From positions 1 to 24,415 of IMG/VR virus record IMGVR_UViG_3300006086_000035: 24,415 bases of DNA; one strand, written 5' to 3'. The translations under genes were made by a program, and so were the position numbers. Shown one piece after another: positions 12,196-24,242 of this stretch. The notes under the pieces are model-generated. The model had not been told where the DNA came from, did not search any database, and saw only the letters and a program-made list of their open reading frames with translations. Numbering within the stretch: position 1 is the stretch's first letter; each line of letters begins with the position of its first letter. This stretch comes from a virus.

Positions 12196-12224
12196 GACCC
12201 CGGCTACAAACCGGGGTCTTTTTT
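12196..12224 (+). terminator. Rho-independent terminator at the convergence point
   Basis: GACCCCGG (12196-12203), a 7-base loop and CCGGGGTC (12211-12218) make a perfect 8-base-pair GC-rich stem, followed by TTTTTT at 12219-12224. This is a textbook terminator for rightward transcripts. Read leftward, the stem is followed only by TAAAG, so it would terminate leftward transcripts less well, but it lies just past the leftward block's last stop. Confidence 0.9.
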
Positions 12225-15200
12225 ATTTCGGGAATTGAGCTGCTGCCCGGCCCGTGTCGGACGGCTTGTACTGCACACCGCTTGGCGTCGTAAATATTTG
12301 ACGGATAAGCTGCTGTGTCGGCGCGCGCAACATGTCTCCCAGCGGTGTTGGTTTAAACCCACGTGCCTGCATTTCTGCCCGGAGCTCGTTGAGGTTTTTA
12401 ATGTCGCTGCTGGGGTCGCCGTGACTTTGGACGGTGTTGTTGTAACGCTCTTTAAGCATTTCCAACCGGTCTTTAAACTGTTCCGTCGACTGAATCATGG
12501 CGCCAGTTTCCGATTGCATCAACGATTTGCTGGACGGCTGAAATCCAAGCGCTTCGGCAAACGCTTCGCCCGCATTCAAATTCATCAGCTTGTCGTTTTT
12601 GGTATTGGTCACGCCATTGGTCAATTCGCGCGCACCACGCATGACATTGGCAATACCTTGAGGCATCATACCTTCGATACCTTTGTAATAGTTGCCTACC
12701 AGAATGTGATGTAACGATTCGGCAGCGCGGCCCACAAGACCACCAAACGGACCCGCAGTCACTTGGCCAATGGCGTCTTGCACACTTTTGCGATCGGCAG
12801 GGTTTACATTCGTGTAAGGCGCAATTCCCAGCATGTCGCCATAGCCGACTTTGCTGGTCAAATCTACACCCAGTGCACCGGGAATACCCCGCAGCAGCAA
12901 CTGGGCGACATTTTTATCTCCCACTGCTTTTTCGATCTTTGTTTCCCAGTCTTCGCCTTCAATGCCTGTTAACATATTAGTAAGGTTTTGCGACACGGCG
13001 CTGTACGTACTGAAACCGGGCATGCCGATAACGCCTCCCAATACGCCCACATGGGCCAGCGTGTACGCCAAATGGCGTATGGCTATGGCACGTTCTTCTG
13101 GGTCGGCCGTTTTGAGGTTGCCGATCATTTTGGCCATCTGAGTCAGCTGCACCAACTGGAACTTGCGAAACTGCAACGCCACTTTGCCAAACCCGTTGTT
13201 AAACACCCGCGGTGCGTTGGCCCGGCTATGGTCACCGTGGGTTTCAGCTACCACGTCCGCAGCGTAGTGCAATGCTTTTTCAGCATCGCCGGTACGGGCA
13301 AACTCCAACCGGTATGCCGCCGCCGCGCTGGCCAAACGGTTCAATGCTTCCATCTTCAACGAGGCTGCAGCTACCCGGTCGGTTGCCGCCTGCGCCGCGC
13401 GCGTCACGATGTTTTTAGGGTGCATGGACATGGAGCCGTATTCGGTGTTCATGCCAATGTCCAACCGTCCCAGTTCCAGCAAACGTTGCATGGGCGCGCG
13501 CACGTCAGCTGGCATGTCTTCGATGCGCAGGGAACGCAGCAACCCAGTCTTACCCAAAATCCCGCCGATTTCTTTGTACGCTTTAAAAAACTCGTTCATG
13601 CCTTTGGCGTACCCGTGCTGCGCTTGCAAGTAAGGCAGCGTCATCGTCCATGGCTGCATCAGGTTACCGACGTAATGCGCCGGGCTGGTGGCGATTTGCC
13701 ACAACGCCGTGGCTTTGGTGATTTTGTTGGCCCATGGAGTCGGCACCGCGTTGGTGCTTTGCTCATGGCGTTTCAAAAATTCATCCAGCAGATTCAAGTT
13801 TGTAGTGCGTTCTTCGCCTTCGCCCCGGTCAGCCTGTTTGCGCGCATTTTTGAGCGCGGTGAGCATTTTGTCGTTGTACTTGATGCCCGAAATAAAGTGC
13901 GCGTCTGCCGCAGCCGATTGGCGAAATGAGTCGACCACATCCATCGTACCGTGTACACCTACCCGGCGCATCTCAGCTTTGCGAGAACTGCGGTGGCTCA
14001 ATGCATCCAACCACATGTGGGTCAATAGGTTGCGCATGGACGCCGCTTGCGCTTTGTCCGCTGGGTTGGTAGACTCTTGAGCCATCATGTCCAGCTTGTT
14101 GCGCAGTCGCGCCATACCGGCCAGCACGCCGCCGCCTTCTTGGGTCCAACGGTCTTTGGGTTTGTAATACGTGTGGTCGCCCGTCGACGGGAACCCGGCT
14201 GCACGCATGTTGTCGCGCAAGGCTTTGGCTTCTTGTTCGCTCTGGGCTTCAGACACCAAATAATGATTCGGGTCCGTCTGCATTTTTTCCAGCAGCGCGC
14301 GATGTGTTGGCGTGGCGTCTTCTGCATTTGCAGCCGCTTCGGCTTTTAAATACTCGTCGGACTTACCAACCGCTACAAAATCACCACGCCGTTGCATGGA
14401 CACGTAAGGCTGACCTTCACCGATGGACAACAGCGTGTTGTACTTTTTCAGCAACCCTTCACGTTCGCGCTCAAGGTCCCGGGCTACGTTGTGATGTCCA
14501 GCTGCCGTCGCTTCGGCAATCATGGGTTTGTACATGCTGTCAGCCAATTCCGTAATCGCGTCTTTTTTGGCTTTCAGTATGGTATCGCCATGGGCAAACA
14601 CGGCTTCCGCAACCCGTTTGGCGCGAGGGGACAAAGCATCGTACAGCTTGGCTGCGCGGCTGTTCTCTGCCCGCTTGGGACCATACCCCCATGCCGTTGA
14701 CAACGTGGATTCTTGCAAGAATTCACTAAGTGTGCGTTTTTCGGGGGTGCTAAAGGTGCGCACATCTTCCACTGCGTTTAACGCGGCTTTTTGGTAGTGG
14801 CCAGCCAACGCATCGCGCGATTCGCGGTGTTCGTCAAACGTCTCCAACGCATGCAAGCCCCGGGCAACTCCACGCTTCACCAGATCGCGGGTAAATATTA
14901 CTTTGTCCAGACCAGAATTGGTCCAGCGGTTAAGCCGGTCGGTGATGGTGCGCGCAGGCTCTTGCAACCTGTCAGGCAACTTGTCGATGTTGCGCGACAC
15001 CATGGCAGCACCTTCAGTCTTCAAACTGTTGGCCACGTCTTTCAACTTGGCCATATCCGCCGGAGAAATCCAATCGCCTGTGAAGTGGTCAAGGCCCACG
15101 CGCGCGATACCTACGCCGGCTTTGCCCGGCACGAAAATTTCGTCACCTCGCAGATTTTTACTGCGAATCAATATAAGCCCGTCTTTGTCGTACACAATTT

Positions 15201-18200
15201 CGCCACGACCTTTGTTGAGCAACGCAAACCCGGAATACCCTGATTTGTTTTCTTGCTTACCAAAAGACAATCCGCGGTCGTTGGCGTGTTTAACGTATGC
15301 CCCCGTGTCTTCCGACATCAGTTCGTCGCTGACAGAAATCAAGCGTGCAAGATCGGAACGCTCGTCAACCTTGTGCAAACCTAAAGCGTTGGCAACAATG
15401 TCGAGCAAGCGGTGGAACCACGTGCGCCCTTTCGGGTCAATGCGGCTGGCCAAATACTCCTGCATTTTGGGGTTGGTAAGCCCCCACGATAGCAACTCAT
15501 GGGCGTTTTCCAGCGAGTTGTTTTTGCCTGAGAAAAATGCTTTTTCAAAGTCGTTTAGCTTGTTGGCATTTTTGCGACTAAGAATGTCTTGCCGTAGTTC
15601 GTTATAAAACTCTTGCAATTTGCGCGCTGCAGTACCTTCAGGGTTTGCACTGATGGCAGCTTGGGTCACTGAGTGAATGAGCTCATGCGCTAAAGTTTCT
15701 TGGTTGGTACCCGATCGGGCACCCATGTGCGCACCGTTGAGGTTAACTTCGACTTTGCTGGCTTCTCCTAAAACGCCGGGAGTGTGGCTGCTAACGCCAA
15801 CCATATTGCCACGCAGCGCACGGCCCGGCTCGGTCACTCCGAACGAAAACTCAAATCCTAGTTTTTTAAGCTGCTCATACCGTGCAAGCACGTTGGTCAA
15901 AATCTGTTTGCGAAACTTGTTAGTTTCTTTGGCAATCGCGTACTGGATAGCCTGTTTAAACGGCTCGGACCCTTTGGCAATTTGGCGCAAATCGTGGTCC
16001 ATCTGCAAATCGGCATCCGACGACGCGTTATCTGCCACATGTGCTGATTCAGTGGGGTCATCCGACTCGTCTTTCCAACGGCCGTCTTCCGTTGTATCGC
16101 CTTTTTCGTCCGCAGCAAGCTGAGTTTCTCCGGCGATTTCAGCGTCGCGTTTGTCGTACAGCTTCTGACGTTCGTCTTCGAGTTTGGTAACCAGCTTGTG
16201 GTCGCCTGCGTCTTCCGCATCAGCAATTTTGTCGTTGAGCTCGTCGATGCGTTCATCGATGGGTTTGTCTTCAGTTTTAACCAACGTCGTTGTTTCTTTT
16301 TCTTCTTGTTTTTTTAAACCTTTTTTGTACAAATCGGACAGCACTTTTTGCTGGTCGCGGATTTCTGAGGCCTTCTTTTTGTCGCCGGCTTTGAGCGCTG
16401 CTTGGAGCTGTTCTTCAAGCGCTTTGGTTTTTTGAACCAGCACTTCTTCATTGGTCGCTAAACCGCTGCCCCGAGTTTCTTCAATGGGCGTTTCAGGCTT
16501 TTCCGCTTCAATGGCTTTTTGTTGTTCGACTTCAGCCGTTTTTTCGGCTTTGGATTTGACGCCCATGTTGTCAGCGCCTTGCACGTGAATGCCGTCGCCA
16601 ATCATCAAATCTTTGGTTTGCTCTGGGCTGATGTCGTTGGTAAGCAGACTGGAATCACCACCGTCTTGTTGAATGGCTGCTTGTGTTTTGCGCTTGGCAG
16701 TTTTTTCTTGCGCGATGTCAAGGGCGTCTTTCACCGCAATGGCTTCGGCTGGTGTAATGTCACCTTTCTTCAAAGCGGCTTCAATGCGCTCTGCTGTCAA
16801 ACGGTTGACAGACTTGCGCACGCCGTCTTCAGACACCGGTTTCTTTTCGGCCGCACCAACTTCGCCAAACTTTTTACCGTTGGCAATTTGCCACACGCGC
16901 TCACCGAAAATTTTGCCGAATACTTTGTGAAACACATCAGCGGGCGGTATGGTCGTCTTTTCTGCAGCGTCCGCAGCCAGTTGTTCGGGCGTCTTGGCGT
17001 CTTCGGCAGCGCTTTCAGCTTCCACGCGTTTGCGGTTTTGCTTAGCTTGCGTCTCTTTGGCCGTCTTTGCGGTGGCATCCCAGTTTTCTTGGGTCAGTTC
17101 ACCCTTGGCATGCGTGTCGTCGATCACCGCGCGCTGCTCGGGCGTCAACTCGCTGTATTTGGGCAAGCCGGTCTTGAGGCGGTTAAACGCTTGTTCGGCC
17201 GTCAGCTTTTTCTCGATTTTGGGTGCTTTAAGAGTAAGCCTGCCCGGTGTGGCTGGTTTGACTTCGGTAGGTGCTTCACTGAAATCTGGAACGACTGATT
17301 TGGGTAAAGCCGGCGCGCGCTGAACTTTTCCAGTAGGCAAACCGGTTTGTCCGGTTTTGACAGGGCGTTCAACAGGTTTATCGGTTGGTCGTGCACCGTT
17401 GCCGTAATAATCGCCGTTTGTGGCAACCCAACCTTCGTTGGTGCCAACGATCATAGGTTTCTCTACTGCAGACGCACCCACACGGGCATTTCCGCCAGAA
17501 ACAGGCGTTAGCACGCCGGCTGAAGATGCTTCGGTGCTGGGACGAACGTCTCCAGTGGGCTGTTTATCGTTAGCAATTCCAGTTCCCACGCTTCTTGCAG
17601 GCTCAACACTTGTAGGTTGACCCACTCCTGCAGTTCCGGGTGCAACGGGTCCAGATGTGCCGTCATTTTGTGCGCCTTTCAGTTTGGCAATTTCTTCGTC
17701 TGCCAACGCCATTTTGCCAGCCTTTAACGCTTTGACGAGCGTTTCGGCTTCTGGACTTTCAAGGTTGATGCCCGCGTCCATGGCGGCTGCGGCTTTGTCG
17801 CGCGCTGGTTTGTTCTTTTTGGGGATGCCAACAGCGTTCAGTGCGTCTTCCCGCACCAATTCAGCCCGTTCTTGATCGGCAGTTGGTGCGGCAGGCTCAG
17901 CGCCCGGAGGTGCGCCGGGCGGCGGATTTCCCGGTGGAGGCGGCGGTGCGTTGGGGTCGACCGGCGGCTGGCCTTTTTTACCTTTAGGTGTAAGGGCAAC
18001 AGGTGCTTCGGGTTGTGCTGGCCATGCAGCTTCCACGTCGGCTTGACGCGATGCATCGGGGGCAGGTGCTTGAGCTGCTGGAGCCTGACCGCCAAATCCC
18101 GGGGTTTCACCGCGCGCCGCGCGTTCTGCCGCAATCATGTTGTCGGCGTAGGCGTTGGTCGACCGGGCTTGCGTATCAGCCGTGTATTGCGCAGCCGCGT

Positions 18201-19632
18201 TTTTGCCGGCCAATGCACCGACTTCGGGTTGAATATCCTTGGCTGCTTTGTCCATTTTGACGGCTTGCAGCAAATCGATTTGCTGGTCCGGGGTAGCTAA
18301 CGCATCGCCCAACGCGCTGCGTCGAGTCGAATCTTGCACCGAATGAATGCCTGCCAACGGAGACAACACCGCGCCAAACGACAGCCCGGCGCCAAGACCG
18401 TGCAACATTGCATCCCCAACGTCTTGTTGTTGACCGCCGTAAGCATTGTTCGACGCCGCGCTGGCGCCAGCCATACCCGACATGACGCCGCCCTGAACAC
18501 CAATATTGCCGGCTCCGTTGGCCAGCATGCGCGCAAAGTACGCGGGGTTTGTTACGGCCGCTGCGGCTTGCTCTGCGGTCATGGCGCCTTTGCCGACAGC
18601 TTGTTGAAGCTTGGCTACCACTTGCTGAGCTGCGCCGTACGTGCCAGAACTGGCAACTTTGCCAAGATGCCCCATGGCCATAAGGCCACCACCTTGCGTA
18701 AAAAAATCTACCCATCCAGCTTGGTTAGCTTGATCAGGCGCGACACCTTGTTGCAAAAGCGACTCTTTTTTCTGCTGAGCAGCCTGTCCGCCAAACAGGC
18801 CCATGTTGAGCCCCACGTCGCCCAGAATTTGAAACGCTCGGGGTAACGCGGTTTCAGGCAACGCAAGAGATGCCGCCATGATTGGCAGCATGGGCGCAGC
18901 ATCGGCCATCGTCTGAACAAACCACGAACCAACAGGACCGCGACCTAACGTGTCAGGAACTTGATCAGCGCCGGTAAACCGGTCGACGGCAGCACCTGCG
19001 TTGTTGAGCCCCTGACCCACAGTGTCTGCGCCAGCCCATTGAGCAGCATCGCCAGCAGTATTTAAAAACGCCCCGGGCGCGCGTGTCGCCAATTCTTTGA
19101 CGCCTTGATACGCGTTGCTAAGCGTGCCGTGGTTGATGTTTTGCAGATAACCCGATACAAGTTTGGCTGGAACCAGTTTGTAACCGGGAGGTGCCGTCGT
19201 TGCGGATTGTTGGCCGTCGGGTGAATTAACCGCGTTCCACACAGCCGTCGGGTTGCTATCAATATCGTAGCTTTTGCCACCGATCAGAATGCTTTTGTCG
19301 TCCGCAGATACCGCGTAACTTGGCTGAGACGCTTGGGGTTGCAACAAAGCTTGCGTGTTGGCTTGCGCGTTGCCTGCTTGTTGCGCATACATTTGCTGAA
19401 TAACGGTGTCGTTATTTTGCGGTGCGGCTTGTTGAGGGGAATTGAAATAATTATCAAACCCCGACGGGCCTGTCGGCAGTTGCGGCATGCTGGACTGCGC
19501 AGGGGGTTGCCCGGCAGAACCTAACGGCTGATTTTGAGGGAGGCCCATGACGGCCCCCGTTGCGCTATTGCCCCCCGCAAGATTTGAACTCGCAAAGGTA
19601 TCCGGATTTTTCGCGGCGGGCGTAACTGCCAT
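12223..19632 (-). CDS. Giant virion/ejection-type protein with HELIH metallopeptidase-like site
   Basis: This 2469-residue protein starts behind TAAGGAG. The N-terminus is Gln/Ala/Pro-rich and disordered, then come hydrophobic and Gly/Ala-rich segments at about 240-430. A proline run lies at about 558-580, followed by long charged, Lys/Glu-rich regions with coiled coil at about 1025-1175. A peptidase-like site, LAHELIH (H1316, E1317, H1320), is followed by ENAHE at 1375-1379, which could supply the third zinc ligand. The C-terminal third is helical, with PYVSMQRRGDFVAVG, a TSPAHYVGNLMQPW segment at about 1980-1995 and a hydrophobic segment near 2180-2215. Similar very long multidomain proteins occur in podophages as internal virion or 'polyvalent' proteins delivered with the DNA. 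The role is inferred; no lytic transglycosylase motif was seen. Confidence 0.85.
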   Translation of the reverse strand: MAVTPAAKNPDTFASSNLAGGNSATGAVMGLPQNQPLGSAGQPPAQSSMPQLPTGPSGFDNYFNSPQQAAPQNNDTVIQQMYAQQAGNAQANTQALLQPQASQPSYAVSADDKSILIGGKSYDIDSNPTAVWNAVNSPDGQQSATTAPPGYKLVPAKLVSGYLQNINHGTLSNAYQGVKELATRAPGAFLNTAGDAAQWAGADTVGQGLNNAGAAVDRFTGADQVPDTLGRGPVGSWFVQTMADAAPMLPIMAASLALPETALPRAFQILGDVGLNMGLFGGQAAQQKKESLLQQGVAPDQANQAGWVDFFTQGGGLMAMGHLGKVASSGTYGAAQQVVAKLQQAVGKGAMTAEQAAAAVTNPAYFARMLANGAGNIGVQGGVMSGMAGASAASNNAYGGQQQDVGDAMLHGLGAGLSFGAVLSPLAGIHSVQDSTRRSALGDALATPDQQIDLLQAVKMDKAAKDIQPEVGALAGKNAAAQYTADTQARSTNAYADNMIAAERAARGETPGFGGQAPAAQAPAPDASRQADVEAAWPAQPEAPVALTPKGKKGQPPVDPNAPPPPPGNPPPGAPPGAEPAAPTADQERAELVREDALNAVGIPKKNKPARDKAAAAMDAGINLESPEAETLVKALKAGKMALADEEIAKLKGAQNDGTSGPVAPGTAGVGQPTSVEPARSVGTGIANDKQPTGDVRPSTEASSAGVLTPVSGGNARVGASAVEKPMIVGTNEGWVATNGDYYGNGARPTDKPVERPVKTGQTGLPTGKVQRAPALPKSVVPDFSEAPTEVKPATPGRLTLKAPKIEKKLTAEQAFNRLKTGLPKYSELTPEQRAVIDDTHAKGELTQENWDATAKTAKETQAKQNRKRVEAESAAEDAKTPEQLAADAAEKTTIPPADVFHKVFGKIFGERVWQIANGKKFGEVGAAEKKPVSEDGVRKSVNRLTAERIEAALKKGDITPAEAIAVKDALDIAQEKTAKRKTQAAIQQDGGDSSLLTNDISPEQTKDLMIGDGIHVQGADNMGVKSKAEKTAEVEQQKAIEAEKPETPIEETRGSGLATNEEVLVQKTKALEEQLQAALKAGDKKKASEIRDQQKVLSDLYKKGLKKQEEKETTTLVKTEDKPIDERIDELNDKIADAEDAGDHKLVTKLEDERQKLYDKRDAEIAGETQLAADEKGDTTEDGRWKDESDDPTESAHVADNASSDADLQMDHDLRQIAKGSEPFKQAIQYAIAKETNKFRKQILTNVLARYEQLKKLGFEFSFGVTEPGRALRGNMVGVSSHTPGVLGEASKVEVNLNGAHMGARSGTNQETLAHELIHSVTQAAISANPEGTAARKLQEFYNELRQDILSRKNANKLNDFEKAFFSGKNNSLENAHELLSWGLTNPKMQEYLASRIDPKGRTWFHRLLDIVANALGLHKVDERSDLARLISVSDELMSEDTGAYVKHANDRGLSFGKQENKSGYSGFALLNKGRGEIVYDKDGLILIRSKNLRGDEIFVPGKAGVGIARVGLDHFTGDWISPADMAKLKDVANSLKTEGAAMVSRNIDKLPDRLQEPARTITDRLNRWTNSGLDKVIFTRDLVKRGVARGLHALETFDEHRESRDALAGHYQKAALNAVEDVRTFSTPEKRTLSEFLQESTLSTAWGYGPKRAENSRAAKLYDALSPRAKRVAEAVFAHGDTILKAKKDAITELADSMYKPMIAEATAAGHHNVARDLEREREGLLKKYNTLLSIGEGQPYVSMQRRGDFVAVGKSDEYLKAEAAANAEDATPTHRALLEKMQTDPNHYLVSEAQSEQEAKALRDNMRAAGFPSTGDHTYYKPKDRWTQEGGGVLAGMARLRNKLDMMAQESTNPADKAQAASMRNLLTHMWLDALSHRSSRKAEMRRVGVHGTMDVVDSFRQSAAADAHFISGIKYNDKMLTALKNARKQADRGEGEERTTNLNLLDEFLKRHEQSTNAVPTPWANKITKATALWQIATSPAHYVGNLMQPWTMTLPYLQAQHGYAKGMNEFFKAYKEIGGILGKTGLLRSLRIEDMPADVRAPMQRLLELGRLDIGMNTEYGSMSMHPKNIVTRAAQAATDRVAAASLKMEALNRLASAAAAYRLEFARTGDAEKALHYAADVVAETHGDHSRANAPRVFNNGFGKVALQFRKFQLVQLTQMAKMIGNLKTADPEERAIAIRHLAYTLAHVGVLGGVIGMPGFSTYSAVSQNLTNMLTGIEGEDWETKIEKAVGDKNVAQLLLRGIPGALGVDLTSKVGYGDMLGIAPYTNVNPADRKSVQDAIGQVTAGPFGGLVGRAAESLHHILVGNYYKGIEGMMPQGIANVMRGARELTNGVTNTKNDKLMNLNAGEAFAEALGFQPSSKSLMQSETGAMIQSTEQFKDRLEMLKERYNNTVQSHGDPSSDIKNLNELRAEMQARGFKPTPLGDMLRAPTQQLIRQIFTTPSGVQYKPSDTGRAAAQFPK

Positions 19633-19669: not shown

Positions 19670-21325
19670 CTACGAAATGGCAACGGGAGCACCGGGAAAT
19701 TTGCCAGTGGCCGGGCCACCAAGCGGCGTCGCTTGGTTTGTTTTCGGATTGATAACGTACACCGTTCCGTCGTTGGACGACACAGTTTTGATAGCGCCAG
19801 TCTCGATGGCTTTTTGGAACTCTTGCGAGCTGTTGACGCCCATTTGTTTGAGCAATTCCACGTTGCCTTGGTAGTACGCTTTGGCCAACTCGGGTGCAGC
19901 TTTGGCCATAGCCATTGCTTTTTCCTGTTGAACTTGAACGCTCATTTGTTGCGCGCTGTGGTTTAAAGCAAAGCCCATAGTACCCGCCAAGTCGTGTGGC
20001 GTTCCCGTGGTAATAACCGTGCCGTTCTGCGCGCGCATAGCGTACTGCCCGTTACCTGTGGGTACGAGCTGAATCGGTGTGCCTGCACGCGACGTGTATT
20101 CTTGGAACAAAGTCTTAAACGCGTTCATGTCCCCAGCCTGCGCCTGCTGCGTGGTCATGTAAATCTGCGAATCGTAATATCCTTGTTGCGCCTGTCCAAG
20201 CGATTGCTGGGCTTGCATGTACGCTTGCCCGGTGGTGGGGTCTTCGGGGTGCGCTTGGTATCGCATTTGCGCTAATTTAAGTTGCTGCGCGCTCATCATG
20301 GCTTGCTGGCGCAGGCTTGCGATCGTGCGATCGTCATATGTCCCGGGCATTTGGAACGCCCCGCCGGGGCCAACAAACGTGGGCTTGGACGGGTCATTGG
20401 CGGGCGCAGCCGAAGCGGTTTGCGGCAAACCTTGTAACCCGGGGGCTGCGGCAGCAATGGATTTGCTGGGCCCAGTGTAGGTACCTTGTGGGCCTTGCGC
20501 TTGGCGTTGAAGATCGGCAATCTCTTGCCGAATCATTTGCTTGGATGCTTCGTCGGGGACTTTTTGCAAGTCTTGTTGCAGCGCCGCAATGTTTCTGGCA
20601 ATAGCGCCCGGGTCTCGCCCTATGTCGCCATTGACTTGCGCGGCCATCGCTGCATCAGACGCGTTGAGCTTTTGGCCGGACGAGTTAGTCGTTGGGGGCA
20701 AGCTGGTTCCCGTAGCTTGTGTTCCACCGGCCGGAGGCTTGTTAGACCGGCCAGCGTTGTATTCAGCCAGCGTAGTAGGCGCAGGGGGGATGCCGGTATC
20801 GACAGGGCTAATTATGGCCCCGGGGAGGTTGGTACCGATTATGTTGCCATCAGAGCCGTTAAGCATCTGGAGCTGACGCAGCCGCAACGCTTGCCCTTGT
20901 GGGGTGTTAAGCCCTAAATTTACGTTGTTTGGCCCCATCCCAATGGCGGTGGCGTTGCCCGGGTTGTTGTAATTAGCTAGGCGGTTAAGTTCAGCGGTTG
21001 TCGAGTCCGGTGCTATGGCGTAGTTGATCTGCCCGGGCGTCTCGGTGGGCTTAACAGGGTTGGTTCCAACGGTGCCGGTAGGCACAGTAGTAGCCCCGGG
21101 GGCGGTAGCCGACGCGTCGTTAGTAGCCCCAGAATCAGGGAACTGCTGCTCTCCCGTTGCTGTGGGCAGCCCTTTGGCGGCCGCAGGGTCCAAAGACTGA
21201 TTAGTTTGTTGGCGCATCTGCCCAGCCGTGATCGCGTCACGGGTCATTTGGTCAGAGCTTTGCAGCGCTTTCAGGGACGCAGCGTACTGCTGGTTCGAGT
21301 CATTGTCGTTGCCATAGAGGCTCAT
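19670..21325 (-). CDS. Gln/Ala-rich virion protein, probable internal or tail component
   Basis: The 551-residue product has a polar, Thr/Pro/Asn-rich first half and a more ordered Gln-rich helical region at about 325-480 (QAMMSAQQLKLAQMRYQAH, then QAQQSLGQAQQGYYDSQI). Near the end a short beta-like element reads DGTVYVINPKTNQATPLGG. There is no signal peptide or membrane segment. AAGGGG precedes the ATG and overlaps the stop of the upstream gene. Position just before the giant gene and low complexity suggest a partner in the ejection apparatus. It is not assignable to a named family. Confidence 0.72.
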   Translation of the reverse strand: MSLYGNDNDSNQQYAASLKALQSSDQMTRDAITAGQMRQQTNQSLDPAAAKGLPTATGEQQFPDSGATNDASATAPGATTVPTGTVGTNPVKPTETPGQINYAIAPDSTTAELNRLANYNNPGNATAIGMGPNNVNLGLNTPQGQALRLRQLQMLNGSDGNIIGTNLPGAIISPVDTGIPPAPTTLAEYNAGRSNKPPAGGTQATGTSLPPTTNSSGQKLNASDAAMAAQVNGDIGRDPGAIARNIAALQQDLQKVPDEASKQMIRQEIADLQRQAQGPQGTYTGPSKSIAAAAPGLQGLPQTASAAPANDPSKPTFVGPGGAFQMPGTYDDRTIASLRQQAMMSAQQLKLAQMRYQAHPEDPTTGQAYMQAQQSLGQAQQGYYDSQIYMTTQQAQAGDMNAFKTLFQEYTSRAGTPIQLVPTGNGQYAMRAQNGTVITTGTPHDLAGTMGFALNHSAQQMSVQVQQEKAMAMAKAAPELAKAYYQGNVELLKQMGVNSSQEFQKAIETGAIKTVSSNDGTVYVINPKTNQATPLGGPATGKFPGAPVAIS

Positions 21326-21334
21326 GGTGTCCCC

Positions 21335-22342
21335 TTAAGTGCCGGTGGAATCAGTGGCGTTTTTGATTGAGCCGTCTTTGCTGTTGCCAGCGTAAATGTT
21401 GTAGGCATTTCCAAGGTTTGCCGCGACAGCGGTATTGGTGCTGTTTGTGCCGTTCTGCGAAGTTTGCTGCGCCGCGCCCAGAGATGTGTCAGCGCCCACT
21501 TGCGGAGTGTATGCGGTGAGTAATCCTGCACCTTGCGTTTCTTGCGCGCCCATTGCAGACTGCCCTTGCGCCCACGCCGTTCCGTTGTTTTGGGAAGCGG
21601 TGGTAGCGTGCTGAGCCATGGCGCTGTCGTATTGCGGGTCACCTGCATGGTAACCCTCACGATTAAGCTGGGTCTGCAAAGCCGAACCCGTGGCGGCATT
21701 CGAGTTCATGGAGCCAGCTAATGCATTGTTTGCCAGATACGGCGCTTGCCCAATCAACGAGTTGCCCACGGCGGTTTTGCCAGCAGCGGTGGCTTGATTT
21801 GACGCGTTACCTTGCGCTTGCACGTCGGCCGCGGTTTGGTACCCTTGAGGGACGCTGTGGTTGGCCGTCAACGAGTTGGCCAAGTTCAACCCCGCATTCA
21901 CCAACTGAGGGTTTTGTTTCAGGTATTTGCCGACATTGTCCAAGCCACCGGTCATGTCTGTACCAGTTGAGGCTGGGCCGGGGGTGTCAATGGGCGGAGT
22001 GTACGCACCGCCCCCAGAGCCTATGGGTCCAAGGTTGGTGCCCGGCGAACTATTTGCTACGCCAGAGCTCACGCCGCTTCCCGACAGATCGAGGCCGGGC
22101 GTAGCAGCGCCGGAATACCCCAACCCGCCGGGGCCGCCGTACGTGGTGGCCGCCGTTTGCGCCAAATTACCAAGGTCTGTTCCAGCTGCGGCAGAAGGCG
22201 CGTCCAGTGGTGCTCCGCTAAACGCTGGCAAAGTCCCAGAAGCTGCGTCTGTAGGCACTCCACCGCCAAGGTCCGGTAAAGACGATGTGTCTGTTCCGTC
22301 GCCACCGGTAAAAAAACTTAACGCAGTATCCCAAATTGACAT
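21335..22342 (-). CDS. Gly/Ala/Ser/Thr-rich low-complexity virion protein
   Basis: The 335-residue product starts MSIWDTALSFFTGGDG, then runs through a Gly/Ser/Ala/Pro-rich stretch up to about residue 130. A more regular helical region follows (VGKYLKQNPQLVNAGLNLAN; YDSAMAQHATTASQNNG). Its pattern of small residues and Asn/Gln is typical of phage structural components that thread through narrow channels. TAAGGAG lies before the ATG and includes the stop of the upstream gene. No catalytic motif, no Cys. Function within the virion is unknown. Confidence 0.68.
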   Translation of the reverse strand: MSIWDTALSFFTGGDGTDTSSLPDLGGGVPTDAASGTLPAFSGAPLDAPSAAAGTDLGNLAQTAATTYGGPGGLGYSGAATPGLDLSGSGVSSGVANSSPGTNLGPIGSGGGAYTPPIDTPGPASTGTDMTGGLDNVGKYLKQNPQLVNAGLNLANSLTANHSVPQGYQTAADVQAQGNASNQATAAGKTAVGNSLIGQAPYLANNALAGSMNSNAATGSALQTQLNREGYHAGDPQYDSAMAQHATTASQNNGTAWAQGQSAMGAQETQGAGLLTAYTPQVGADTSLGAAQQTSQNGTNSTNTAVAANLGNAYNIYAGNSKDGSIKNATDSTGT

Positions 22343-22351
22343 AAAAACTCC

Positions 22352-23863
22352 TTAGCGCGGCTGCATCGCCGCAGGCGTGTGGTACTTGCGTACTATGTTG
22401 TCGAAGAACTCTTTGCCCTTCGTGGCTACCACGTCCGCAGGAATAATGTACTCGCCGTTGCTGAGTTTTACTGCTTGACCAGAATCTGTGTTGTGCGCTT
22501 GGATGGAGTCGCTGGTGCCGGTGCCCGGCCCATGTAACATGCCGCCGTTCTTGAACGCACCTTGGCGGTCACCATGTTGCGCTGCTTGAGATACGGCCAT
22601 CAACGCCATGCATAACTGCTGGTTGAACTGCTGGGGCAGCTGAGGTGCGTCTGGCAGCCCAGCTTGAATGGCGAATTGGCGCAACTTTGGCCAAAGTTCA
22701 GGGTTTTGCATAGCTGATTGCGCAAGCTGACCGAGCATCTGCAATTGTTGCGGGTTTACTTGGCCTGACTGAATAGCTTGAGACATGTCAGTCTGAATGG
22801 CCTGCATAACTTGCGGATTAGCCAGTTTGTTTTGAACGTGCAATGCGGCAATCGCCGGGTGCATGTCTGGGGGCGGGCTACCCGCAGAAGCACCGGCCGG
22901 GGCCATTTGCAGACCAGCAGTAGCCATTGTCGGATTAGCACCTTGTTGCACAGGCATTGGCTGTTGAGGCTGTTGCGCACCCGTAAGGCCGCCGTCTGCG
23001 TACCCTGCACCACCCGTTCCAGACCCTTCACCGCCATGGGGGCCTGCGTTGCCCCCTCCGCCCCCTCCGCCGCCATTACCATTGCCTCCGCCGTCGTCCG
23101 CAGATTTGCCCGGGTTACCATCCATGCCCGTCATACCATTAGGACCAATGCCCGCAGGTGCGCCACCAGTAGGCGCTTGGCCTTGCTGAGTTGCTGGGTC
23201 GGCTTGCGTCGGGTTAGCGGCAAAGGTGTTTGTGGCGGTCGCAAACGCAGGGTCCGTGTTCGTAGAAATAGTGGCCCCTTGCATTGTCGCCGGGTCTGCA
23301 GCTACGGGATTAGCCGCGGGCGCGTCTGCTAGAGGCGTTCCAAATAACGCGTTCATTCCTGCCGTTATAGGGCCAAACTGCGACAAATTTGCGCCAAACG
23401 TCGCTGAAGCTGGGCTGTTGCCAGACGTAGTACCAGTGCTATACCCGTCAGCCACATTTGTACCAAACCCCATCAATCCACCGATTACAGGGCCAAATGC
23501 CAAAGTACCAACTGTGCTGGCTATTTTGCCGGAAGTACCGTCGGCAACCCCGGTTCCATCTGACGCTGGAGCAGCAGTATTGCCACCGGGGGTCGAGTTA
23601 CCCCCTTTAGTGTTTGCGTAAGCTGGCGTAGTGGGCGGTGCTTCAGTTACGGGCGCGTACTGAAGCCCGACGCCTTGGCCCCCCGCGGACTGCTGTCGCA
23701 GGTAGTCACCAAAGTTTTGCCCTGCGGTCGGTGTATCCAGATTGGCAGGGCTGTTTGGGTCGCTCGACGTAGCGATCGTGCCGCCGTCAGCGTATTGAAT
23801 CCCCATGGTCGGGCCGGGCATCTGGCCGCCGTCAGCATATCTATTTTGCGGTTTTGCAGCCAT
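22352..23863 (-). CDS. Virion protein with YADGG motifs and conserved phage C-terminal domain
   Basis: The 503-residue product carries the motif YADGG near residues 9, 24 and 286, embedded in Gly/Pro-rich sequence, and an uninterrupted run of eight glycines. A helical Gln-rich region follows (NPQVMQAIQTDMSQAIQ; QFAIQAGLP). The C-terminus reads GPGTGTSDSIQAHNTDSG, then VKLSNGEYIIPADVV and GKEFFDNIV, a recurring ending in phage tail or internal virion proteins. GGAG precedes the ATG. The three-part architecture suggests a structural protein with a conserved interaction tail, but its exact place in the particle is unknown. The gap to its upstream neighbour is one base. Confidence 0.78.
   Translation of the reverse strand: MAAKPQNRYADGGQMPGPTMGIQYADGGTIATSSDPNSPANLDTPTAGQNFGDYLRQQSAGGQGVGLQYAPVTEAPPTTPAYANTKGGNSTPGGNTAAPASDGTGVADGTSGKIASTVGTLAFGPVIGGLMGFGTNVADGYSTGTTSGNSPASATFGANLSQFGPITAGMNALFGTPLADAPAANPVAADPATMQGATISTNTDPAFATATNTFAANPTQADPATQQGQAPTGGAPAGIGPNGMTGMDGNPGKSADDGGGNGNGGGGGGGGNAGPHGGEGSGTGGAGYADGGLTGAQQPQQPMPVQQGANPTMATAGLQMAPAGASAGSPPPDMHPAIAALHVQNKLANPQVMQAIQTDMSQAIQSGQVNPQQLQMLGQLAQSAMQNPELWPKLRQFAIQAGLPDAPQLPQQFNQQLCMALMAVSQAAQHGDRQGAFKNGGMLHGPGTGTSDSIQAHNTDSGQAVKLSNGEYIIPADVVATKGKEFFDNIVRKYHTPAAMQPR
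23038..23096 (-). repeat. Poly-glycine-coding, CCC/CCG-rich low-complexity tract
   Basis: On the + strand this stretch is dominated by CCC, CCT and CCG triplets. Within the 503-residue protein it encodes Asp-Asp-Gly repeats and an eight-glycine run. It is low-complexity coding sequence, not an independent element, and is prone to length variation. Confidence 0.7.
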
Positions 23864-23864
23864 A

Positions 23865-24242
23865 TTAGCTCCGTAGCTGGGTTATCAGCAAGTTTACAAC
23901 ACTTGTGAGGTATGTGACAGCATTTTGTAACTGCTGCACGTCGTTAAGCAGTGCTAGGTAACTCTGTGCGTTGACGATTGTGATGGCCCCGGTTTGCGCT
24001 GCCAAGTTGGCGCCGTTGGTGTACGTGGTGCCGGCGACAAGCCCAAGGGAAGTCATTGGAACAATTTGCGGGTTAGCTTGCGCGGCGACGGTAATTTCGT
24101 CGTTTGTGATGGCGTGGTAGCTGGCCTGCGCGTTTTGCCCGCACAAAATTTCAATGTTCTCTTTCATCGCGCGAAACAAGTTTGCTTCAGCCGCGTTTAA
24201 GCCCTCCAAGGGCACGTCAGGGATTGGTGCAAATGACGCCAT
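23865..24242 (-). CDS. Small virion-type protein
   Basis: The 125-residue product starts MASFAPIPDVPLEGLNAAE followed by LFRAMKENIEILCGQ, a helix with one Cys. Polar segments AITNDEITV and PMTSLGLVAGTTY follow, then a hydrophobic C-terminal helix (LALLNDVQQLQNAVTYL and VVNLLITQL) that could form a coiled-coil bundle. The style is that of small podophage structural proteins, but I cannot name the family. Its start overlaps the stop of the gene to its right (TAATG on the minus strand), so the two are probably co-translated. Confidence 0.72.
   Translation of the reverse strand: MASFAPIPDVPLEGLNAAEANLFRAMKENIEILCGQNAQASYHAITNDEITVAAQANPQIVPMTSLGLVAGTTYTNGANLAAQTGAITIVNAQSYLALLNDVQQLQNAVTYLTSVVNLLITQLRS

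Follow-up and report, generated by a model that had tools for sequence, protein, structure and literature searches.

The window analysed here, a phage record of 24,415 bases, carries on its minus strand a giant gene coding for a polyvalent-type protein of 2469 residues. The gene is identical to part of a 56.9-kb IMG/VR contig (L002). It closes a late operon on the minus strand and converges on a replication block that includes DNA polymerase, helicase, and primase genes. The features of the locus are listed below, in the direction of transcription for the parts of the giant protein.

19670-24242, minus strand: upstream late genes encoding proteins of 551, 335, 503, and 125 aa, in the same operon as the giant gene
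12223-19632, minus strand: the giant gene, a single intact ATG open reading frame of 2469 codons
18124-19632, minus strand: residues 1-503, N-terminal region kept in sister phages (BLASTP)
16039-18123, minus strand: residues 504-1198, low-complexity, charged and Pro-rich variable linker (composition and identity profile)
14998-16038, minus strand: residues 1199-1545, exchangeable cassette slot, holding unrelated sequence in three sister proteins (sequence comparison)
15292-15969, minus strand: residues 1222-1447, putative zincin-like metallopeptidase domain (profile, alignment, and predicted model)
15673-15687, minus strand: HELIH, residues 1316-1320, two candidate His ligands and a candidate general-base Glu (motif and conservation)
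15496-15498, minus strand: E1379, invariant third-ligand candidate in a downstream predicted helix (alignments and model)
12421-14262, minus strand: residues 1791-2404, PLxRFG/DarB-like C-terminal domain (NCBIfam NF032893 and phrog_10089)

The overall gene layout is podophage-like, of the short-tailed type. L002 encodes an internal virion protein upstream of the giant gene (phrog_511, E 1e-113), and a related 60-kb contig encodes a terminase, a head-tail adaptor, and a major head protein. We also note that the 503-aa protein (window 22352-23863, minus strand) has a weakly tape-measure-like C-terminus (phrog_3547, E 7e-9) in what is a podophage-like genome. Judging from its neighbors and relatives, the giant protein is probably packaged in the capsid and ejected along with the DNA. 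The sequence-only reading had invoked giant "polyvalent" phage proteins with effector domains delivered with the DNA, and a giant phage protein of this kind is supported by the related ejection proteins and by the PLxRFG domain, which scores 254 bits with NF032893 against a curated cut-off of 100, and matches phrog_10089 at E 6e-33; residues 1440-1545 gave no match. Disordered and hydrophobic parts had been noted too. The middle of the protein (about residues 500-1200) is indeed of low complexity, charged and Pro-rich; hydrophobic parts are present, but with no clear membrane helix, since the highest 19-residue Kyte-Doolittle mean is 1.33 and the usual threshold for a membrane helix is 1.6.

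The HELIH site and its predicted fold

Both elements of the site first noticed, HELIH at residues 1316-1320 and ENAHE at 1375-1379, are present in the intact 2469-residue reading frame. A lone HExxH arises in 104 of 2000 composition shuffles of the giant protein (about 5%), so that the motif alone is weak and conservation has to carry the case. A tblastn search with the domain region matched 399 of 50,697 phage records at an E-value of 1 or below; many of these matches are weak. Internal virion proteins of the phiKMV type score best (E about 1e-11), ahead of Limnohabitans phage YIMV22061 (7e-8) and of Serratia phage Parlo (4e-7). HExxH is kept at the aligned place in all 17 annotated relatives examined (16 phage records out of the 399 and one plasmid), and a 13-row alignment leaves only the H, E, H, E and one Leu invariant. 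A match to a Mycobacterium phage (E 0.02) was taken as chance.

A deeper alignment has 36 rows, consisting of the window protein and 35 of the 37 loci recovered by four IMG/VR scans, with two near-duplicates left out; the rows form 17 clusters at 90% identity, and the relatives are 16-23% identical to the window protein. Separate viral_contigs scans, run with just the domain or with a two-row alignment, recovered nothing beyond the phage itself, and the single genome_contigs scan returned one Pseudomonas putida locus. The sole invariant columns are H1316, E1317, H1320, E1379, and G1384 (36 of 36 rows, 17 of 17 clusters). The earlier proposal of a gluzincin-like HExxH...E site is thus supported by conservation, with H1316, E1317, and H1320 invariant as predicted, but it had named the wrong Glu: Glu stands at 1379 in all 17 clusters and at 1375 in just 5 of them. 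We therefore reject E1375 as a zinc ligand, and the candidate third ligand is the last Glu of ENAHE, not the first. Since the putative general base and all three ligand positions persist in a domain that otherwise diverges, we take the domain to be catalytic and not just structural. That the HELIH is a chance motif in a low-complexity giant protein would agree with its frequency in shuffles and with the sister proteins that lack it (see below), but a homologous domain with the same four residues is found in every row and in relatives from several phage families; we reject this explanation on conservation and regard it as scarcely credible.

An AlphaFold2 model built with 29 of the 36 rows (pLDDT 71.4, pTM 0.72) has a helix, three strands (46-52, 67-69, and 78-84), the HELIH helix (96-114), and further helices, with E1379 in a predicted helix at 162-171; the middle strand is of low confidence and the strand layout is a prediction. 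The model suggests a zincin layout, and the domain combines the features of zincin-like MPTases: an HEXXH, a Glu in the second conserved downstream helix, and a predicted three-stranded sheet with flanking helices. Foldseek alone found nothing significant for this model (best E 1.0). With VIA-align the top match is the phage N4 virion RNA polymerase (vRNAP) at residues 2124-2364, with 3.7 A over 181 residues and a Z of 8.6, which by the tool's note is modest and barely exceeds what unrelated models can attain; zincin peptidases take ranks two to five (Z 4.8-4.9), and unrelated chains appear among the lower ranks. Modest as it is, this top structural match is backed by sequence: searched against PDB sequences, the domain profile hits N4 vRNAP (E 4e-9), an internal virion protein of 1337 residues (3e-55), and a gp10 of 1239 residues (3e-18), relatives of all three being included in the profile, as well as PhiM1 gp48 (E 1.8e-11), whose genus is absent from it. 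Independently, phrog_2206, a virion RNAP family, matches phiKMV gp37 at residues 415-563 (E 2.5e-17) and the Limnohabitans phage protein at E 6.7e-12. No Pfam peptidase family (thermolysin/M4 or others) scored above cut-off for the giant protein. Membership of eCIS_core (PF13699) was rejected, the match reaching 16.5 bits against a cut-off of 22 and being confined to the HELIH surroundings.

A metal-dependent domain that is not a protease, such as an alpha-ketoglutarate oxygenase-type HExxH domain with a zincin-like fold, could give a similar signature. The N4 authors mention the HExxH of fused radical-SAM enzymes in the available text, and the HExxH domain of ChlB matches our model at Z 3.0 with VIA-align; however, this lies below several peptidase zincins (4.9) and far below the N4 C1 domain, and we consider the explanation very improbable.

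Module exchange between sister phages

Three sister phages (L003, L004, and L037) encode giant proteins with C-terminal ~920 residues that are 68-73% identical to those of the window protein and N-termini that are about 40-52% identical (41-52% over residues 1-503 in L003 and L037; BLASTP), in collinear surrounding genomes. None of the three has anything corresponding to residues ~1199-1545 of the window protein. Their slot carries instead HEVGTH, HEVGVH, or HEVGSH (HEXXXH), followed by a conserved E-x-V-A-Y, and in two of them a further piece lies alongside:

L003:13358-13940, L004:7406-8120, and L037:8219-8930: HEXXXH cassettes (HEVGxHLGL...E.VAYF)
L004:8066-9286 and L037:8867-9991: ADP-ribosyltransferase-like (ART-like) piece beside the HEXXXH cassette, with a weak ART-PolyVal match

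The ART-like identity is tentative, as the Pfam matches (E 0.0012 in L004 and 0.14 in L037) are both below cut-off. There is no detectable profile similarity between the HELIH domain and the HEXXXH cassette (hhalign probability 0.3%), and searches of phage records, PDB sequences, and Pfam gave no relative of the latter; a fold search gave a best Z of 3.1, and Foldseek nothing significant. We describe the HEXXXH cassette as protease-like, a putative zincin, from its motif and downstream Glu, the strand and helix order of its model, and the HEXXXH set of Iyer et al.

The swap has a sharp right border at about codon 1546, with DNA identity resuming at L002:14638, and a left border that is blurred within the variable linker. 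L002 and L003 share the IMG/VR dataset number 3300027898, so both cassette variants may occur in one sample. The sequence-only reading had staked its case on conservation of the motif in homologues, and taken literally this does not hold, since the three full-length sisters have no HELIH; yet that position is filled in them by a cassette of the HEXXXH type, a finding that argues for module exchange rather than a spurious motif. The slot between the linker and the PLxRFG domain is exchangeable between sister phages.

T7-like ejection proteins, possible roles, and known systems

The same domain, with the invariant residues of the window protein, is present in phiKMV gp37, KP34 gp48, PhiM1 gp48, and the 1576-aa protein of Limnohabitans phage YIMV22061. 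These T7-gp16-like ejection proteins with the domain are 1232-1576 aa long. Outside the domain, BLASTP shows no relationship to the window protein (tested with the Limnohabitans phage protein). The HExxH domain is in 8 of the 11 T7-like ejection proteins tested and is lacking in phiAB1, Acibel007, and pphageBV72; the first two retain both flanks and pphageBV72 retains the C-terminal part. The zincin-like domain is thus optional in ejectosome proteins. The three (L070, L071, and L072) represent shorter natural versions without the protease-like insert. A weak profile match in phiAB1 (E 1.4e-4, residues 513-573, with the A2 profile only) was taken as helical noise.

The T7-like relatives are often annotated as an "internal virion protein with endolysin domain" or a "peptidoglycan lytic exotransglycosylase". 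In the Limnohabitans phage protein a genuine SLT domain (16-118) is followed by a separate zincin-like domain (about 553-755). For phiKMV gp37 (L008:3972-7985) and KP34 gp48 (L018:1385-5083) there is no SLT match in Pfam, and their alignment to phrog_342 starts at profile position 168 and 180, respectively, beyond the part of the profile that corresponds to SLT in the Limnohabitans phage protein. PhiM1 gp48 Asp268-Asp528 was named "endolysin/exotransglycosidase-like" through BLASTP and DALI, according to the available text of PMC11440229; the zincin profile covers residues 370-512 of this protein, with an HEAAH and a downstream Glu. We find the "endolysin" label unsupported by these comparisons for phiKMV gp37 and KP34 gp48, where it may be wrong; a distant wall-degrading activity could still be present in T7-like ejection proteins. 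Two further records are of note. The 3.2-kb sequence OR847408.1, which bears the name Listeria phage LM 4-11-1, codes for an ejection protein like KP34 gp48 (56% identity). Such a protein is odd for a Gram-positive host, and the record is possibly mislabelled. In the giant proteins of Xanthomonas phages Soumapaz and CP2 (L011 and L013) the HExxH motif occurs twice, as HEVLH and HEMGH, and one chain may hold two protease domains.

We propose that residues ~1222-1447 form a zincin-type metallopeptidase cassette in a packaged, ejected, podophage-like giant protein, a latent protease that becomes active after ejection, and we rate this reading slightly better than even. H1316, H1320, and E1379 would bind zinc, with E1317 acting as general base, and the domain would occupy, as a cassette, the slot between the flexible linker and the PLxRFG C-terminal domain. 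The giant protein would ride in the capsid and be ejected alongside the DNA, upon which the latent protease would turn active; its target would be host proteins, which we slightly favor, or linkers of its own chain, freeing other domains. Since the domain is not needed to build an ejectosome, being absent from 3 of the 11 proteins, a role as cargo is favored, and the exchange between sisters, with an alternative form beside an effector-like (ART-like) piece, favors a role after ejection. We count against the proposal the null Foldseek result, the modest Z, the lack of a Pfam peptidase match, and the sisters without the domain. A wider proposal, plausible but somewhat short of even, is that podophage ejection proteins possess an exchangeable effector slot that can take zinc proteases of unrelated type (HEXXH or HEXXXH), in some cases along with an ADP-ribosyltransferase, and that the "endolysin" domain of hundreds of T7-like phages is an infection-delivered protease.

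Alternatively, an inactive zincin fold might be kept as a structural or a DNA- or protein-binding module of the ejected complex. The domain is included in deposited ejectosome chains, and the PhiM1 authors discuss its loops as possible DNA contacts in the available text (PMC11440229), but nearly every other position drifts around an invariant general-base Glu and third Glu, and 3 of the 11 T7-like ejection proteins dispense with the domain; we judge this improbable. Autoprocessing, in which the protease would release domains by cleaving the giant protein that contains it, whether ahead of packaging, inside the head, or once delivered, seems to us a less remote prospect, if still an unlikely one. 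The position of the domain, with a long flexible linker before it and the C-terminal domain after it, would suit autoprocessing; we know of no separate enzymatic cargo that the domain-bearing T7-like ejection proteins would release, which counts against it. N4 offers an analogy, as C1 is placed between the RNA polymerase and the remaining C-terminal domain, which inhibits the polymerase (PMC12633501, available text), and a cut there could switch the polymerase on. Autoprocessing has been proposed for P1 DdrB and others, but the available text also reports that N4 vRNAP is packaged unprocessed (PMC5512222), and that of PMC12633501 finds "no evidence of degradation" of the recombinant protein. 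By the same analogy, both observations make action on virion proteins during maturation, also raised at the outset, less likely than the post-ejection protease that we prefer.

Zincin domains in polyvalent phage proteins, that of N4 included, were already published in 2017, and the window protein adds a member. In the available text, Iyer et al. (PMC5512222) describe zincin-like MPTases as the commonest polyvalent-protein domain, including N4 vRNAP and HEXXXH variants, and propose autoprocessing or host targeting; PMC8472413 restates this account for N4-like phages, and the N4 structure preprint, in the text available, points out the HExxH in C1 but assigns it no function. PMC5512222, in its available text, does not name the phiKMV/T7-like ejection proteins, and we found no report of a zincin in phiKMV-, KP34-, or PhiM1-type ejection proteins in the open-licence literature, itself weak evidence of absence. 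The same literature yielded neither the HEXXH/HEXXXH swap between sister phages nor the optional status of the domain in T7-like proteins, nor any demonstration of proteolysis by the zincin-like domain. Linking the N4, T7-like, and DarB-like domains is a useful unification, with re-annotation possible. If the protease is active, numerous well-studied lytic phages, of the phiKMV, KP34, PhiM1, and N4 types, would deliver a protease with their DNA, and the cell-wall-enzyme label in T7-like phages would misdirect experiments. phiKMV/LUZ19 or N4 are direct test systems, and the sister swap is a natural comparison of two cassette types within one protein frame.

Among known systems, C1 of the N4 virion RNA polymerase (gp50, residues 2124-2375) is the best structural and sequence-profile match for the window domain, although N4-type vRNAPs have a T7-like RNA polymerase domain, for which the window protein has no Pfam or PHROG match. 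DarB-like/PLxRFG giant proteins, such as Serratia phage Parlo gp81, have C-terminal and protease-like domains in common with the window protein, which has no Pfam match, at E up to 10, to the SNF2 helicase or DNA methylase domains of the DarB type. The zincin-like MPTases of polyvalent proteins, as described in the available text of PMC5512222, have an HEXXH with a Glu in a downstream helix and a three-stranded core, and they lie in the middle of a giant protein, as the domain does here.
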